A stretch of DNA of 44,151 bases from a virus: the IMG/VR virus record IMGVR_UViG_3300044832_000163, positions 1-44,151 of that record; one strand, given 5' to 3'. The notes beneath the pieces are model-generated. The model made no database searches. It had not been told where the DNA came from and worked only from the letters and a program-made list of their open reading frames with translations. Position 1 is the first letter of the stretch. Every line of letters begins with the position of its first letter. Shown one piece after another: positions 7,032 to 39,517 of the stretch. A program made the position numbers and the translations under genes.

Positions 7032-7177
7032 CCGAGGACTCGGGCCGGGAGGATGCGGTCGCCCGCCCTCCAGTTCCAGTAGTGGATGCGCTCGGTCCGA
7101 CCGTTCGGGTGTTCGACGCTGATGAAGTCGGCGACGAGGGCAGCCCACATGCCGCTGCTGAAATGGCGGGCGGTCAC
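7028..7177 (-). CDS. Small hypothetical early protein
   Basis: 49 residues from GTG 7177 (GTGA overlap). It contains VADFISVEHPNGRTERIHYWNWR, which looks like a small beta sheet. Function unknown. Confidence 0.6.
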   Translation of the reverse strand: MTARHFSSGMWAALVADFISVEHPNGRTERIHYWNWRAGDRILPARVLG

Positions 7178-7410
7178 GACGTTCCGCCTTCGAGGAACCG
7201 TTCGAGCTGGCTGCGGGTGATCCGGGTGAGCCGCCCTTGCCGCCAGCAGGCGAGCCGGCCGCGGCGAATCCACGAGTAGACGGTTTTCCGGCTGACCCGC
7301 ATGACGGCGGCGACCTCGTCGACCGTCATCACGTCTGGCAGGTCAGCCAGCGACGGGGGCGCGGGAAGGGCCGGTGCGTTGGCCGCCAGGACAGTAGACA
7401 GACGCGGCAT
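7174..7410 (-). CDS. Excisionase-like / MerR-type helix-turn-helix protein
   Basis: 78 residues. The segment from residue 28 on (VMTVDEVAAVMRVSRKTVYSW, then RRGRLACWRQGRLTRITRSQLERFL) is the HTH_17/excisionase domain pattern: a two-helix turn, a short wing with positive residues, and a closing helix. Such proteins act as recombination directionality factors or as regulators. Its place just after the early-promoter regulator and within 2 kb of the integrase suits excisionase, but this is inferred. The ATG at 7410 shares one base with the stop of the XRE gene (TGATG). Confidence 0.8.
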   Translation of the reverse strand: MPRLSTVLAANAPALPAPPSLADLPDVMTVDEVAAVMRVSRKTVYSWIRRGRLACWRQGRLTRITRSQLERFLEGGTS

Positions 7411-7631
7411 CAGGACGCCTTGGCTGCCGCGGCGGGATCGCGGATGAGGGCGCCGACCGGGCACTTGAGGGCGGCGGCCATCCGCTTGATGACGTGGGCC
7501 GTGCCGGGCTTCTTGCCCTGCTCGATCTCGGTCAGGTAGCTGGGGGCGATCCCGACCATGCCCGCGAAGGTGGCCTTCGTGTAACCGGACCTTTCACGGA
7601 TTTCGGTCAGCGCCTCGGGGTTGATCTGCAC
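7410..7631 (-). CDS. XRE-family HTH regulator (Cro-like), leaderless
   Basis: 73 residues: INPEALTEIRERSGYTKATF is followed by AGMVGIAPSYLTEIEQGKKPG, the five-helix XRE/Cro fold with the recognition helix at about 26-36. I place the start at GTG 7631. A TAACGT -10 box ends exactly 7 nt before it and a TTGAAA -35 box lies 17 bp further upstream, so the transcript should begin at the start codon. The in-frame TTG at 7667 is therefore the -35 box rather than a start. As the first gene of the left-reading lytic operon it is probably a Cro-type regulator. Confidence 0.85.
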   Translation of the reverse strand: MQINPEALTEIRERSGYTKATFAGMVGIAPSYLTEIEQGKKPGTAHVIKRMAAALKCPVGALIRDPAAAAKAS

Positions 7632-7667
7632 GTTCTGAACGTTAGCGAACGAAGGCGAACGTTTCAA
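7631..7667 (-). promoter_or_regulatory. Early lytic promoter (PR-like), leaderless
   Basis: The -35 TTGAAA lies at 7667-7662, followed by a 17-bp spacer and the -10 TAACGT at 7644-7639; 7 nt later comes GTG at 7631. Two GCGAAC sites (7645-7650 and 7655-7660, + strand reading) fill the spacer, so a bound repressor would block RNA polymerase. It drives the long minus-strand operon. Confidence 0.75.
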
Positions 7668-7782
7668 GAACTATGGCGAACATTCCCGAAATTGGCCGTT
7701 GACCTGCGAAAACACAAGCGTGGTTCGCTAGGTTGATTCGCCGATCTTCGCTACGACCTCACTAGATTTCGCAAAGATTCGC
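7645..7782. promoter_or_regulatory. Helically phased GCGAA/TTCGC operator array
   Basis: Nine copies of a 5-bp element lie in the divergent region. GCGAA starts at 7645, 7655, 7676 and 7706; its complement TTCGC starts at 7724, 7737, 7747, 7768 and 7778. The spacings are 10, 21 and 30 bp in the left half and 13, 10, 21 and 10 bp in the right half, nearly all close to whole helical turns. All left-half sites face one way and all right-half sites the other. This is the expected look of a lysogeny operator region. Confidence 0.65.
7763..7768 (+). promoter_or_regulatory. Possible -10 box of the repressor promoter
   Basis: TAGATT fits the TANNNT actinobacterial -10 pattern and lies 43 bp before the repressor ATG. 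One TTCGC element starts on its last base, which would allow autoregulation. I see no good -35 box. Confidence 0.35.
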
Positions 7783-7811
7783 TGTCACGATGCCGACTGA
7801 TGGGAGCGCCG

Positions 7812-8186
7812 ATGACACAGAGCACCAATCCACTCGGCCAGTACCTTCTGGGCGAGATAACACGCCGCGGCGGCTACGCCCGCACTGCCCGTGAAGTCGG
7901 ACTGTCCGACACGCTGCTACGGCAGATCGTTGAGGGACGCTGGAACGGCCGCGACACCACGCTTGCCAAACTCGCAGAGGGGCTCGGGGTGCCGGCCGAC
8001 GAGCTGTTCAAAAAGGCCGGTCGCCTCATGCCCTACCACGACACGCGGGTACCGTCCGGCGACTTCGAGACAGTTATTACCCGTCGTCTTGAGGCTGTCG
8101 AAGAGGCAGTACGGGAGCTGACCGTTGAGGTTCGACAGTCTCTTCCTCGGCCAAAGCCGCGACGAGCTCAGAACGGAGGGCGCTGA
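7812..8186 (+). CDS. Putative immunity repressor (XRE-like HTH)
   Basis: 124 residues. Residues 10-65 form an XRE-type helix-turn-helix: YLLGEITRRGGYARTAREVG, then LSDTLLRQIVEGRWNGRDTT and LAKLAEGLGVPADELF. The C-terminal part has a short coiled coil (RRLEAVEEAVRELTVEV) that may mediate dimerisation. I chose ATG 7812 because GGGAG lies 5 nt upstream; an in-frame ATG at 7800 is the alternative. It is transcribed away from the Cro-like gene and toward the integrase, the usual place for the lysogeny repressor. There is no peptidase domain, so LexA-type self-cleavage is unlikely. Confidence 0.75.
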   Translation: MTQSTNPLGQYLLGEITRRGGYARTAREVGLSDTLLRQIVEGRWNGRDTTLAKLAEGLGVPADELFKKAGRLMPYHDTRVPSGDFETVITRRLEAVEEAVRELTVEVRQSLPRPKPRRAQNGGR

Positions 8187-8926
8187 TGGCTTCCTCTAGC
8201 CGTGCGAGCCGCACCAGGGCGTCGCGGGCGAACTGGTCGGAGCGCCGTCGCCCTGCCGCCCGCCGCTCCGACAACTGTTCCGCTCCCACTCTGCTGATCT
8301 TCCCTCGACATCGGACCGACCCGAACCGGACTTTACGTCCGTCGCTCGCCGACGGTCGACGGTACCGCCGGGACACCTCATGCTTACCCGCCGTTCACTA
8401 TTCCGCAATCCCTAAAGGTGTCCAAAGCCGGCTGCGCATCGCGGCCGTGGCCTGTCTGGCTGCGCTGGCGTTGGCGGCGTGCGGTGGCAAGTCGGCGACG
8501 ACCAGCACGGCGACCACGACCGCGGCCCCACCCACAACGACCATGCCAGCGACGACGAGCCCGCCGACCACGGCGATGACCGAAGCAGCGTGGCTACGCC
8601 AGTGGGGCAAAGTGCCGCTCGACCTGTCTGAACTGCTGAGCAGCTTGGCCAGCACCTTCAACCCGAACGTCGCCCCCTCCGAGATCGAGACATCGTGCAA
8701 CTTGCTCACCGGGCAATTCGAGATCGCGTTGAGAGTGCCCCATGCACCGTCGCAGCGCGTTGCGAGCGTCTATCAGGCTCTCCTCGGGTACAGCCTCCGG
8801 GCCTACTCGGCATGCAAAGCGAACCCGCGATCGATCGCCCCAGCGGTGCAATCGCAGGTCCAAGCGGACAGCTACACCATGAGCGCCCATCTAAGCGACT
8901 ACACCGCCGCCATCACTGCGCCCTAG
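8186..8926 (+). CDS. Lipoprotein-like membrane-anchored protein, possible superinfection-exclusion or conversion gene
   Basis: From the ATG at 8186 (GGAGG 6 nt upstream, TGATG overlap with the repressor) the protein has 246 residues. Residues 83-101 form a hydrophobic stretch ending in LAAC-GG, a lipobox, followed by a Thr/Pro-rich linker and a soluble helical domain with two Cys. A normal lipoprotein would start near residue 80, but the only in-frame candidate there is GTG 8447, which leaves too short an n-region. The first 80 residues are Arg/Ser-rich and unlike the rest, so the true start is unresolved. Expression with the repressor suggests a lysogenic conversion role, for example exclusion of other phages; this is inference. 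Confidence 0.6.
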   Translation: MASSSRASRTRASRANWSERRRPAARRSDNCSAPTLLIFPRHRTDPNRTLRPSLADGRRYRRDTSCLPAVHYSAIPKGVQSRLRIAAVACLAALALAACGGKSATTSTATTTAAPPTTTMPATTSPPTTAMTEAAWLRQWGKVPLDLSELLSSLASTFNPNVAPSEIETSCNLLTGQFEIALRVPHAPSQRVASVYQALLGYSLRAYSACKANPRSIAPAVQSQVQADSYTMSAHLSDYTAAITAP

Positions 8927-9172: not shown

Positions 9173-10294
9173 ATGATGGCGAAGGGCAGCAAGCGGCAGC
9201 GGCAGCCCGGCGTGTGGGAACTACGCGTCTACCTAGGCCGCGACCCGATGACCGGCCGGCCCCTGCAACGGTCCCGCACCTTCCGGGGGGGCAGCCGCGC
9301 CGCCAACGACGCCCTCGTCAAACTCCTCGACGATGCCCGTCGCGAACCGATCGCCAGCCACGGCACCGTCGCCACCCTCATCGACCGCTACCTCGCCTTC
9401 CTCGAGACTCGCGGCGCGTCGCCCAAGACGCTCGCCAGCTACCGCAGCAACGCCAGCGCCGTCGTCGAGCGGATCGGCAACGTGCCGCTGCACGAGGTCA
9501 CCGCGTCGACGATCGACGGGCTGTACGACTGGCTGCTCGGCGACCGCTCGCCGGGCACGGTCCGCCAGTTCCATATCCTGCTGTCCGGCGCCTTCAAGCA
9601 GGCCCTCAAGTGGGGACTCGTCGCGTTCAGCCCGGTGGCGCTGGCGACACCGCCCGCCTACCCGCGCCGAGAGCCGACCGCTCCGAGCGTGGAGCAGGTG
9701 CGCCGGCTGCTGGTGGAGGCGGAGCAGCGGAACCCGATGCTGGCCGCCCTGCTGTTCACGGCCGCGGTAACCGGCGCTCGCCGCGGCGAGTTGTGTGGGC
9801 TGCGGGCCAGCGACATCGACCTCGCTGCGGGCACGATCACGGTTCGGCGGGCGGTCGTGCGGGTGACGGGTCGGACGTTGGTGAAGTCGACGAAGACCGG
9901 CCACGTCCGTCGGCTGGCGCTCGGAGGGTTGACGGCGGCGGTGTTGGCCTCTCGGTTGGCGAAGATTGAGCAGGACACGGCTGGGGTCCGCTCTGCGGAT
10001 GATCCGTACGTGTTCTCGCATGACATTCGGGCTGAGCGGCCGATGAACCCGGACGTGGTGACAACCTTCTTCGGCCGTCTGCGGGACGACGTGGGTCTGC
10101 GGACGGTGACGTTGCATCATCTGCGGCGGTTCATGGTGACGCAGGGGTTGGCGGGCGGTTGGGATGTGCGGACGGTGGCGGGCCGGGCCGGTCACGATCC
10201 GACGATGGCGTTGCGCAGCTATGCGGCGGTGTTGGAGGTGAAGGACCGCGGGTTGGCTGAGGCGATCGGCGCTCTATTGGTCCCGTCTGGATAG
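9173..10294 (+). CDS. int: Tyrosine site-specific integrase
   Basis: 373 residues with full tyrosine recombinase architecture: an N-terminal arm-binding region (about 1-60), a SAM-like core-binding domain (about 62-160, VATLIDRYLAFLETRGASPK) and a C-terminal catalytic domain. The catalytic set is complete: Arg203 (GARRGEL), Lys241 (KSTKTGH), His315 and Arg318 (HHLRR), His341 (GRAGHD) and Tyr350 (LRSYAAV). It would integrate the phage at attB by strand exchange with attP, probably the repeat region just upstream. AGGGGAGGA precedes two adjacent ATG codons (9173 and 9176). It faces the tail fibre genes convergently across a hairpin terminator. Confidence 0.95.
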   Translation: MMAKGSKRQRQPGVWELRVYLGRDPMTGRPLQRSRTFRGGSRAANDALVKLLDDARREPIASHGTVATLIDRYLAFLETRGASPKTLASYRSNASAVVERIGNVPLHEVTASTIDGLYDWLLGDRSPGTVRQFHILLSGAFKQALKWGLVAFSPVALATPPAYPRREPTAPSVEQVRRLLVEAEQRNPMLAALLFTAAVTGARRGELCGLRASDIDLAAGTITVRRAVVRVTGRTLVKSTKTGHVRRLALGGLTAAVLASRLAKIEQDTAGVRSADDPYVFSHDIRAERPMNPDVVTTFFGRLRDDVGLRTVTLHHLRRFMVTQGLAGGWDVRTVAGRAGHDPTMALRSYAAVLEVKDRGLAEAIGALLVPSG

Positions 10295-35959: not shown

Positions 35960-36174
35960 GGTTCGCCTCGTGCGAGTTCGCCGCGTAGCAGGACACGGAC
36001 GTTGTTGGCGAGCGCACGATCAATGACAACGAGCGTCTCAGTGAGCCGCGAGACGACGGTGTGGCAGCCGATCGGACGCCGCGCCGTTTCGCGCAAGGCG
36101 TAGCCGAGCGCGTGTTCGAGCGAGCCGTACGTGCGGACGTGGTCTGATGCGACGTTCACCCGATACGGCCTCAC
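35956..36174 (-). CDS. Small hypothetical protein
   Basis: 72 residues from GTG 36174 (GTGA overlap). It contains YGSLEHALGYALRETARRP and a C-terminal helix (ETLVVIDRALANNVRVLLRG). It looks like a compact alpha/beta domain. Function unknown. Confidence 0.65.
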   Translation of the reverse strand: MRPYRVNVASDHVRTYGSLEHALGYALRETARRPIGCHTVVSRLTETLVVIDRALANNVRVLLRGELARGEP

Positions 36175-36944
36175 GCTGACACCGACAACGGGAACTCGCG
36201 GCGCCGCGCCCACTCGGGCCACGTCGACCAGTCGGCACCGTGGCCGTCCGGGCAGCCCCACTCGCGGCCGAGCACCTTCCCCGCCTGCTTCACGAACACC
36301 GCAACACCGGCCGTGTCGCAGCGTTCGACGATGTCCCGCGCCCACTCCGGGTCCATCGGCCGCGCCCCCGGACCCGACTCGCCGCCGATGATGCACCAGT
36401 CGATGCCGGTCAGATCAAGCGACGGGAGCGGCCCGATCAGCGGCTCGCAGCTGAGGAAGCGGACCGCGGCGGGCGTGGCCCGCAGATGGTCAGCGCGGAA
36501 CGTGTAGCGGTCGTTCTCGATCGACGTGCCCAACCAGACGTTGCGCTGGTATCCGGGCCATCCTTTCGCTTCGTCGACCACGAAGTTCGCCGGCATCCAT
36601 TGGGCCATTCGCTGCTGTCGTTTCGTGAGCACTTGGTAGGTGTGCCGTTGGGTGCTGCCCATCACCTGAAAGACGCGAGAGATGAACCGGTCGGGCACGT
36701 CGGGGTGGAACAGGTCGCTCAGCGAGTTGACGAACACTCGCCGCGGCTTCCGCCAATGCAGCGGCTTGTCCAGCCGGTCGGGGTGCAGCCGGACGCCCAT
36801 CTTGCCGTGCTCGTCGAACCGGCGGCCCTCGACGCGGAACGGGATCGTCCGTTCGATGTAGCAGTTGTCGCAGCCGGGCGACACGCGGTCGCAGCCGGTC
36901 GTTGGGTTCCACGTCTCGTCGGTCCAGCCGATTTCAGTGGGCAT
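36171..36944 (-). CDS. Phage Gp37/Gp68 family protein (DUF5131)
   Basis: 257 residues matching the family along its whole length: IGWTDETWNPTTGCDRVSPG with CDNCY, FVNSLSDLFHPDVPDRFI, YQVLTKRQQRMAQWM, NVWLGTSIEN, RFLSCEPLIGPL, and IIGGESGPGARPMDPEWARD. The family is widespread in phages; the Cys-rich start resembles a metal cluster or radical-SAM type site, but the reaction is not established. AAGGAG lies 7 nt before ATG 36944. Confidence 0.9.
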   Translation of the reverse strand: MPTEIGWTDETWNPTTGCDRVSPGCDNCYIERTIPFRVEGRRFDEHGKMGVRLHPDRLDKPLHWRKPRRVFVNSLSDLFHPDVPDRFISRVFQVMGSTQRHTYQVLTKRQQRMAQWMPANFVVDEAKGWPGYQRNVWLGTSIENDRYTFRADHLRATPAAVRFLSCEPLIGPLPSLDLTGIDWCIIGGESGPGARPMDPEWARDIVERCDTAGVAVFVKQAGKVLGREWGCPDGHGADWSTWPEWARRREFPLSVSA

Positions 36945-37137: not shown

Positions 37138-37278
37138 CGCGCCCAACCGCCCGACGTTGACCGTCGCTCGCACTGACCGTCGAACACCGCCCACACGTCG
37201 GCTAGGTGTGCCATCTGGTGAGGTTGTTCCCATCAGTACTTGGAGAGGTTGTTCTCAGTAGGGGCATGGGCCTTCCTC

Positions 37279-37294
37279 TGGTAACTAGGTTCAC
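37279..37294 (+). repeat. Near repeat of the promoter/operator element
   Basis: TGGTAACTAGGTTCAC at 37279-37294 matches TGGTAACTTGGTTTAC at 37325-37340 with two mismatches. It may be an auxiliary operator. Confidence 0.6.
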
Positions 37295-37303
37295 GATTGG
37301 GTG

Positions 37304-37340
37304 TTGACTGAGTTACCGCACTGGTGGTAACTTGGTTTAC
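37304..37340 (+). promoter_or_regulatory. Strong leaderless promoter with palindromic operator
   Basis: The -35 TTGACT (37304-37309), an 18-bp spacer, and -10 TAACTT (37328-37333) are followed by 7 nt and then ATG 37341. A perfect inverted repeat AGTTACC-N8-GGTAACT (37311-37332) covers spacer and -10, so a dimeric repressor could block it. A further half-site copy lies at 37280-37286, within a 16-bp near repeat. Confidence 0.75.
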
Positions 37341-37562
37341 ATGACGACGACAGCAGTGGAGACCAGGACCAGCGTCAGCCTCACCGTTGAGCAGGCGAAC
37401 GCTGCGACCATTGCCATCGCCAAGGTCATCTGCGCCTCGGACATCGAGGACAGCGACACTTGGCATGGCGGCATCGGCACCGACCTCTGCGAGTTCTGCG
37501 AGGCGCTGGTCATCATGCGGGCGGCGGCGGGCCACTCGGCGAAGGACTGCCTCCGACCGTGA
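37341..37562 (+). CDS. First gene of the plus-strand moron: small hypothetical protein
   Basis: 73 residues. The Thr-rich start (TTTAVETRTSVSLTVEQANA) leads to a helix and a Cys pair (DLCEFCEAL). The ATG at 37341 sits 7 nt after a TAACTT -10 box, so the message is probably leaderless. The stop overlaps the next start (GTGA). Strong own promoter inside the oppositely oriented early region marks it as an independently expressed gene. Function unknown. Confidence 0.75.
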   Translation: MTTTAVETRTSVSLTVEQANAATIAIAKVICASDIEDSDTWHGGIGTDLCEFCEALVIMRAAAGHSAKDCLRP

Positions 37563-37744
37563 TTCGTCAGCGCACCACCCTCGAGCACTCCCGGTGCGAC
37601 TCGTGCACCGAGGACAACGAGACGACCATCGTGACGCTGGCGATCGGCTACAACCCGAACGCCGCTCAAATCCTCCGGCTGTGCCACCACTGCATCGAGA
37701 CGGAGCTGCTTCCGGCAGCAGCACCTTGGGCGTTGAAGTCATGA
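37559..37744 (+). CDS. Small zinc-binding-like protein of the plus-strand operon
   Basis: 61 residues from GTG 37559, overlapping the previous stop. It carries CDSC near residue 13 and CHHC near residue 44, a four-Cys zinc site around a short beta segment (TTIVTLAIGYNPNAAQILRL). Resembles proteins in actinophages and hosts of unknown role. Confidence 0.72.
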   Translation: MIRQRTTLEHSRCDSCTEDNETTIVTLAIGYNPNAAQILRLCHHCIETELLPAAAPWALKS

Positions 37745-37986
37745 GGGTCGCCGACCTCATGCCCGGCAACATCGTCAGCATCGAAGGCATCGGCAGCGCG
37801 ACCTTCGTCGCCCACACCGAGCACCCTCTCTGGCCGCACCTACGCCTCGTCATCTGGAAACTGGACGACGGCACTTGGAGCCACGACGCCCTCGACGCCC
37901 GCCAAGAGGTTGGGACAGTCAACCCGTGGGATGAACCCACCGAACGGATAGACAACTTGCGACGAGCCCTGCTGGGAAGGGCGTGA
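37741..37986 (+). CDS. Small beta-rich hypothetical protein of the plus-strand operon
   Basis: 81 residues beginning MRVADLMPGNIVSIEGIGSA, followed by EHPLWPHLRLVIWKLDDGTW and DALDARQEVGTV. The alternating pattern suggests a small barrel, with a helical end. ATG 37741 overlaps the previous stop. Function unknown. Confidence 0.75.
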   Translation: MRVADLMPGNIVSIEGIGSATFVAHTEHPLWPHLRLVIWKLDDGTWSHDALDARQEVGTVNPWDEPTERIDNLRRALLGRA

Positions 37987-38252
37987 CGACGATGGGCACC
38001 GCCACTGACCTGCCCATTAGCTTCGACCAGATGGACCCGGACATCGCACGGCGTCTTCGGGCCATCGACAAGCGCCTCAGCGAGCTTGACGCCGAGCGGG
38101 CCAACCTCATCCTCCAGGCCCGCCACGACGGAGCCTCCCTCCGGGAGATCGCCGAGGTCGCCGGCATGAGCCACGTCGGCATCAAGAAACTGATCGCTCG
38201 CCACCTGCACCCACGGGCATACGAGGAGATTGACCGGGACGAGATCGAGTAG
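37983..38252 (+). CDS. Small HTH protein with coiled coil, plus-strand operon
   Basis: 89 residues from GTG 37983 (ATG 37992 is possible). A helical hairpin (AIDKRLSELDAERANLILQA) precedes a helix-turn-helix-like segment (GASLREIAEVAGMSHVGIKK, residues 50-69). This layout fits a small DNA-binding regulator that could bind the palindrome at the operon promoter, an inference from position. Confidence 0.72.
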   Translation: MTTMGTATDLPISFDQMDPDIARRLRAIDKRLSELDAERANLILQARHDGASLREIAEVAGMSHVGIKKLIARHLHPRAYEEIDRDEIE

Positions 38253-38258
38253 GCGTGG

Positions 38259-38465
38259 GTGGGCCATGGCAACGCTCCACTCACACCGGAAGGGCGGCGG
38301 CGTCTCATCGACCGGATCGAAGAAGGACGGCCGATCAGCCACGTCGCCGACGAGGCTGGTGTGTCCCGCAAACGGCTGGGCATCTGGTATCGCCGCTGGC
38401 AGAAGGAAGGCGACGCCGGCCTTGAGGACCGCTCCAGCCGCCCTATCCGCAGCCCCAACCTGCTG
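38259..38465 (+). pseudogene. IS481-family transposase N-terminal fragment
   Basis: About 69 residues that match the N-terminal HTH domain of IS481-type transposases: NAPLTPEGRRRLIDRIEEGR, HVADEAGVSRKRLGIWYRRW, EGDAGLEDRSSRPIRSP. The catalytic DDE domain is absent and after about 38465 the frame no longer looks coding; it continues open as a shadow of the minus-strand gene. It may be a remnant of an insertion or a captured DNA-binding domain. Confidence 0.75.
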
Positions 38466-38567
38466 CCCGACCACATCGTTGCAGGCCGGGCAGAAGACGA
38501 CCGCGACCTTGTGAGCGATCCCGGTCAACGCCCGTTCGCCCGGCTGGCCGCAGAACGGGCACGTCAC
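38440..38567 (-). pseudogene. Truncated zinc-ribbon protein gene meeting the transposase fragment
   Basis: From GTG 38567 (GTGA overlap with the upstream gene) the frame reads TCPFCGQPGERALTGIAHKV, then FCPACNDVVGQ, a four-Cys zinc ribbon. After about 45 residues it runs into the antisense of the IS481 fragment, staying open as a shadow. The original 3' end was probably lost at the junction near 38440-38465. Confidence 0.55.
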
Positions 38568-39517
38568 GACGCCCGCTTGATGCTCGGCAACGGTGGGATC
38601 ACGATTCCGTCGCGGGCCGCCCATTGCTCCATCGTGCGCACCAGGAACCGCGGATTCCCGACCCGGGTCTTGAGGTTCTTCGCGCACCAGCCGAGACATT
38701 CCTCGATCCGTCGAGCGTCCAAATGCCGCCGCAGATGGGCCACGACGATGACGGCATCAGGTCGGATCCGATCGGGATGCGACGAGCAGATCGCCAGCAC
38801 CAGGTCGACGAGGTAGTCCGGGGTTTCGTCTTGTGGCGTAGCCACGTCCTCCGCTTCCACCGGGTCCGGCTCGGCCCCGTCCGTGCCGTCAGCGGCGCTC
38901 GCTGCGGTGGGGGTTACGAGTTCGGGTTCCAGTGGTGGTTCCGGTTGGGGAGAAGGTTCAGATTCAGGTTGAGGTTCAAAACCACTTACAACAGACTCTC
39001 TTGAACCATAACCCTGGGTCGGATCGACGCCTTTGCCGTTGGGATGCGGTACCCCTTCGGCCGACCCTTCCGGTAAGGGTTCGGCCTTCGGGGGTGGCTT
39101 GCCGAAGGGATCGCTCATCCCCGAACGGTGATCCTCGGGCACCGAGCGGTAGACGGCCTGCTTGATCCGCTGCGACCGGACCGTCTCGTAGCTCGCCTTC
39201 ATGGCCTTCTCGACGTTCGGTTGGGCGAGCACGTTGTTGTGCTTGATGAACGACTTGACCCACAGTTCCTCGGTGAGCGGGTCGAGGATGACGAACTTGT
39301 GCTTTTCGAGTTCCTTCACGTCGCGGCGGATCTTGGTGGCGGTGTTGTTGGTGGCGAGCGCCGACCAGCTCACCGGCATGAAGGGGACGACGCCGCAGTA
39401 GGTCATGTTCGGTTGGCTGTTGGCGACGAAGTAGAGGCGTTGGGCGCCTTCGGTGAGCGCCACGAATTGCGGGTCGTTCCAGATGGAGACGAGCAGGGGG
39501 GCGTAGGTGCGTGCCAT
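38564..39517 (-). CDS. Replication initiator-like protein
   Basis: 317 residues. The N-terminal 115 residues (RTYAPLLVSIWNDPQFVALT, EGAQRLYFVANSQPN, TKIRRDVKELEKHKFVILDP, LWVKSFIKHNNVLAQPN) match the winged-helix N-terminal domain seen in phage replication initiators of actinobacteria. A long acidic, Pro-rich linker follows (about 135-240), then a helical C-terminal domain (PDYLVDLVLAICSSH ... TMEQWAARDG), perhaps for helicase loading. The origin may lie in or near this gene. ATG 39517 shares a base with the upstream stop. Confidence 0.75.
   Translation of the reverse strand: MARTYAPLLVSIWNDPQFVALTEGAQRLYFVANSQPNMTYCGVVPFMPVSWSALATNNTATKIRRDVKELEKHKFVILDPLTEELWVKSFIKHNNVLAQPNVEKAMKASYETVRSQRIKQAVYRSVPEDHRSGMSDPFGKPPPKAEPLPEGSAEGVPHPNGKGVDPTQGYGSRESVVSGFEPQPESEPSPQPEPPLEPELVTPTAASAADGTDGAEPDPVEAEDVATPQDETPDYLVDLVLAICSSHPDRIRPDAVIVVAHLRRHLDARRIEECLGWCAKNLKTRVGNPRFLVRTMEQWAARDGIVIPPLPSIKRAS

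Follow-up and report, generated by a model that had tools for sequence, protein, structure and literature searches.

A four-gene cassette with a candidate leaderless promoter and three-site operator array, read against the early genes of a putative temperate actinophage

Which function is served by a short run of genes that reads against nearly everything around it, and which protein controls it, are the questions raised by four plus-strand ORFs at 37341–38252 of IMG/VR virus record IMGVR_UViG_3300044832_000163. The window analysed here is the whole record (44,151 bases, 67% GC). Nearly all genes outside the cassette are located on the minus strand, including those for the replication initiator, RecT, exonuclease and RusA. 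Phage DNA near-identical to the window was not found; its terminase shares at most about 38% identity with terminases of Arthrobacter, Rhodococcus and Mycobacterium phages. The presence of an integrase, two Cro/CI-type HTH genes and an excisionase-like gene suggests, as far as sequence can tell, that the virus is a temperate actinophage. The relevant features outside the cassette are:

7174–7329: short HTH gene, excisionase-like as judged by eye
7410–7631, minus strand: Cro/CI-type HTH gene, repressor-like
7812–8183, plus strand: Cro/CI-type HTH gene, repressor-like
9173–10294: tyrosine integrase
38564–39517, minus strand: replication initiator (phrog_3171, E 4.5e-34)

Between the divergent repressor-like genes (7637–7783) repeats of the GCGAACGTT type were detected, which likely mark the immunity operator region. 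A small predicted lipoprotein-like gene without PHROG match (8447–8926, plus strand) lies between the repressor-like genes and the integrase, a position where genes for lysogenic conversion or superinfection exclusion are usually found. Additionally, a DUF5131 gene (36171–36944, minus strand) matches the PADLOC candidate defence protein PDC-M41B (E 5e-83); its family is common in Gordonia and Mycobacterium phages.

The first-pass annotation had described four small overlapping genes opposed to the early operon, and all four ORFs are indeed present. The three gene junctions consist of 4-base start/stop overlaps of the NTGA type (GTGA, ATGA and GTGA, respectively), so that translational coupling could serve all four genes on one transcript. 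When codon usage was modelled with the cassette left out of the training, the plus strand was preferred over almost the whole of 37300–38400. A 488-aa ORF running across the cassette on the minus strand was rejected as coding, since both codon usage and homology speak for plus-strand genes. No foreign base composition of the cassette was evident. The four genes are:

37341–37562, plus strand: gene 1, 73 aa, C-x2-C-x13-H-x4-C, possible zinc knuckle
37559–37744, plus strand: gene 2, 61 aa, CxxC/CxxC, zinc-ribbon-like
37741–37986, plus strand: gene 3, 81 aa, predicted SH3-like barrel plus C-terminal helix
37983–38252, plus strand: gene 4, 89 aa, long N-terminal helix plus HTH, proposed autorepressor

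The zinc-like cysteine pairs previously noted in two of the products were recovered in protein 1 (CEFC...H-x4-C) and protein 2 (CDSC/CHHC), and both genes probably encode small zinc-binding accessory proteins. No relatives of genes 1, 2 and 4 were found in scans of viral contigs and by tblastn of phages, nor of gene 4 by tblastn of plasmids; this absence is weak evidence because the scans reach close relatives only. With relatives found for gene 3 only, gene order offers no comparison.

Upstream of gene 1, three copies of GGTAACT were aligned, each of which extends to the 15-mer GGTAACTNRGTYHAC, itself an imperfect palindrome. Promoter and candidate operator sites are arranged as follows:

37304–37333, plus strand: promoter TTGACT-18-TAACTT, -35 at 37304, -10 at 37328–37333, predicted leaderless start ATG at 37341
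37280–37294, plus strand: operator site A, GGTAACTAGGTTCAC, centre 37287, upstream of the promoter, no mismatches to GGTAACTNRGTYHAC
37303–37317, minus strand: operator site B, GGTAACTCAGTCAAC as read on the minus strand, centre 37310, over the -35 TTGACT
37326–37340, plus strand: operator site C, GGTAACTTGGTTTAC, centre 37333, over the -10 and up to the start codon

The promoter sequence proposed in the first-pass annotation is the sole match to TTGAC-N18-20-TANNNT in the window (both strands scanned; 0.39 expected), and 7 nt separate its -10 from the ATG. Leaderless sigma-A-like promoters have been predicted in actinophages such as Corndog (PMC4351075). The attribute "strong" is not borne out: the -10 TAACTT agrees with the E. 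coli consensus in just 3 of 6 positions, i.e. is weak by that consensus, and a stricter promoter scan of the window lists none at the cassette start. The palindrome AGTTACC-N8-GGTAACT is exact at 37311–37332 (0.31 matches expected even with 3 mismatches allowed), and the presumed half-site upstream of it proved to be a full third 15-mer site.

The candidate operator centres have a pitch of exactly 23 bp. The array is the best equally spaced 15-mer triplet in the window and was matched by none of 3000 local and 2 of 60 whole-window shuffles; judged by the whole-window test, the shuffle statistics alone are modest, and the case for an operator array is made by the coincidence of its sites with promoter elements (-35 and -10) and start codon. 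This same coincidence speaks against the three sites being replication-origin iterons bound by the neighbouring replication initiator. The regular pitch, a GC content that is locally lowest here (0.545) and the location of the initiator gene 1.2 kb away would fit such an origin; the middle copy is inverted, however, and there are just three copies, which renders iterons barely credible. The same intergenic region also harbours a second repeat pair, TGRGAACAACCTCWCCA on the minus strand (37216–37232 and 37241–37257), the copies of which are 25 bp apart and found nowhere else in the window; it may serve to control the minus-strand genes.

Given three evenly spaced 15-bp copies over its promoter, the operon is probably repressed by one of its own products, a DNA-binding protein. 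The HTH reported earlier for the product of 37983–38252 is supported by a profile match (phrog_686, E 4.5e-7), and further resembles sigma-70 region 4 (E 8e-4, below Pfam's cut-off). A single-sequence structural model of gene 4, indicative only (pLDDT 79), comprises helices at residues 19–48, 53–60 and 64–75; the first and longest would be of dimerisation type, indicative of a coiled-coil plus HTH protein. Geometry and uniqueness of the array, its placement on the -35 and -10, an HTH protein with a long helix within the operon and the tight coupling of the genes count for autoregulation. Against gene 4 as the repressor counts that its HTH is closest to sigma-70 region 4 and not to a known repressor.

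Other possible binders of the array are the two further phage HTH proteins (7410–7631 and 7812–8183) or a host regulator, which would make the cassette a remote part of the lysis-lysogeny circuit or a responder to host state. In lambda-type control regions a promoter is overlaid by three imperfect palindromes that resemble one another and lie some two helical turns apart, and the cassette is alike in having three palindromes of like sequence and spacing; it differs in that these overlay one promoter rather than a divergent CI/Cro pair. The lambda-like layout at 23-bp pitch and the two Cro/CI-type proteins are in favour of an unlinked regulator. The immunity region, however, contains repeats of a different type (GCGAACGTT), and no further match to GGTAACTNRGTYHAC with fewer than two mismatches was detected elsewhere in the window. 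With the sites confined to the cassette within the window and unlike the immunity repeats, a linked regulator is the simplest choice, and control by an unlinked one is considered unlikely.

Gene 3 is the sole cassette gene with findable relatives. Its model (pLDDT 89) displays an SH3-like barrel with a C-terminal helix, and is structurally closest to EF-P domain I and to UvrD Tudor domains (Z below 8); the likeness to EF-P domain I (Z up to 7.9) was taken as common SH3-like fold and not as function. The relatives, 46–57% identical, were found in loci of other phages: directly after a UDG-DNA polymerase A gene (L003), just before a DnaB-type primase-helicase gene (L012) and within a same-strand run of small genes (L004). 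All three share the reading direction of their neighbours, and this position in replication or early operons suggests an early or replication accessory role for gene 3. The cassette-type operator is absent from the loci of the relatives, and near them no phrog_686-type HTH was detected in G001 and G002 and one weak match in G003. By tblastn, no relatives of gene 3 were found in phages or plasmids; the sole match in genome contigs (L007), antisense within a long Pseudomonas ORF, was discarded as chance. As to the neighbouring genes themselves, a single ORF (L003, 1769–4180) encodes a fusion of a uracil-DNA glycosylase domain with a family A DNA polymerase, and the primase-helicase ORF (L012, 4264–7227) contains a LAGLIDADG domain, likely an intein.

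These relatives bear on the proposal of the first-pass annotation that the cassette is probably a prophage-expressed moron and a candidate for protecting the lysogen by exclusion, defence or toxin control, with its own promoter active while the rest of the phage is silent. The description as a self-contained cassette of opposite orientation with its own regulated-looking promoter holds, and a temperate phage with integrase and repressor-like genes would be a suitable carrier. Precedent exists in Sbash genes 30/31, which have their own promoter and are expressed in the lysogen (PMC6426596, PMC6426606). The prophage-expressed actinophage defence cassettes Sbash 30/31 and CarolAnn 43/44 resemble the present one in being dispensable for virion assembly and, in Sbash, in having their own promoter in a temperate actinophage. 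They differ in that both encode a DUF4747 RexA-like protein and Sbash, in addition, one that is RexB-like and membrane-bound, whereas the products here are four very small proteins, encoded next to the replication initiator gene. Homologs read together with the lytic operon, the observation that was to speak against a moron, are what L003, L004 and L012 reveal for gene 3. Moreover, a recognisable enzyme or membrane protein is lacking, and searches of PADLOC, Pfam and NCBIfam gave no match beyond noise for the three non-HTH proteins; as read from sequence, the protein content gives no hint of defence. Tight operators would hold the promoter low in a lysogen, and the array would allow repression as readily as expression in the prophage. 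A lysogen-protecting moron is therefore regarded as doubtful.

The term moron also implies insertion, for which a sign is seen at the right edge only; no close relative showing an empty site was found. The first-pass annotation had ended the cassette at 38465, thereby including part of a fifth ORF without naming it. Beyond gene 4 the following features were identified:

38259–38480, plus strand: start of the fifth ORF, IS481 transposase N-terminal HTH/leucine-zipper fragment (first 61–64 of 284 model positions)
38470–38480: junction of the plus-strand IS481 fragment and the minus-strand zinc-ribbon gene, each truncating the other
38475–38567, minus strand: truncated zinc-ribbon gene, weakly Lar-like (TIGR03655, E 5e-4, below cut-off)

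The frame of the fifth ORF runs on to 38816 through minus-strand genes, and a fifth intact gene was rejected on the grounds that this frame ends inside other genes. With just positions 1–64 of 284 present, the IS481 catalytic domain is missing; a full-length relative exists in another locus (L008), and the only other match of the IS481 model in the window is a weak HTH match at 7258–7329. A whole insertion-sequence end does not fit either, since the IS481-like ORF starts 6 bases after gene 4. The zinc-ribbon gene is GTGA-coupled to the replication initiator, and its second cysteine pair is just completed at the junction. Near the meeting point neither frame has a stop codon. Mutual truncation is a mark of an illegitimate junction; the right edge is therefore probably a recombination scar, by which the cassette or its right part was joined.

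The cassette is convergent with the replication initiator, and no terminator above chance was detected between them. Plus-strand RNA running into the initiator gene could accordingly lower early expression or copy number, the proteins being secondary. Four frames with phage codon usage, one of them conserved at the protein level, argue instead that the products are selected, and transcriptional interference as the main role appears highly improbable.

With middling confidence, we interpret the cassette as an accessory operon with its own leaderless promoter, autoregulated by gene 4 and placed by recombination. A sigma-A-type promoter would drive the leaderless transcript of this small operon. 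A dimeric repressor, most likely the product of the last intact gene (gene 4, 37983–38252), would bind the three imperfect palindromes of 15 bp, spaced 23 bp or about two helical turns apart, and block the -35 and -10. The three small proteins would be made in a burst as long as repression is absent, for instance when the DNA enters the cell, and expression would then limit itself to a low level. Judging by the place of its relatives, the gene 3 product probably acts with the early DNA-metabolism or expression machinery of the phage. Illegitimate recombination beside the replication initiator gene would have led to the present place and orientation of the cassette.

In its anatomy, the cassette resembles acr-aca and HTH-antitoxin operons. 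Aca proteins, encoded by a downstream HTH gene, repress their own promoter via inverted repeats in the core promoter (PMC9410906). The cassette likewise has small orphan genes ahead of a small HTH gene (gene 4) in one operon, its own promoter, and inverted repeats that lie within the core promoter, where sites B and C cover the -35 and -10; it differs in having three sites, not one or two, and in an actinophage carrier, and no sequence tie to known Aca or Acr proteins turned up. No Aca family was among the Pfam, NCBIfam and PHROGs matches of gene 4, and solved Aca chains did not match it by sequence, with Aca1 (7vjn) at noise level by fold. With type II toxin-antitoxin systems employing an autoregulating HTH antitoxin, the cassette shares the terminal HTH gene and a promoter with inverted repeats; unlike these, it is without a toxin-family match in four libraries, and a new toxin family is possible. 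The likeness stops short of membership in either group, as no Aca family, toxin or inhibitor could be recognised. By extension of this likeness, the cassette could be an actinophage counter-defence operon that follows acr-aca logic, in which an autorepressor of a new family (coiled-coil plus sigma-region-4-like HTH) acts cooperatively at three sites to shut off the genes of three small inhibitors; this reading is at present quite improbable.

If the products are routine replication accessories, the locus would be an ordinary case of actinophage mosaicism. In actinophages, genes for counter-defence are difficult to recognise from sequence; should gene 4 prove to be the autorepressor, the 15-bp site would serve as a key to similar operons in these phages. 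The locus also provides a leaderless promoter of compact size with a three-site operator, both readily testable.
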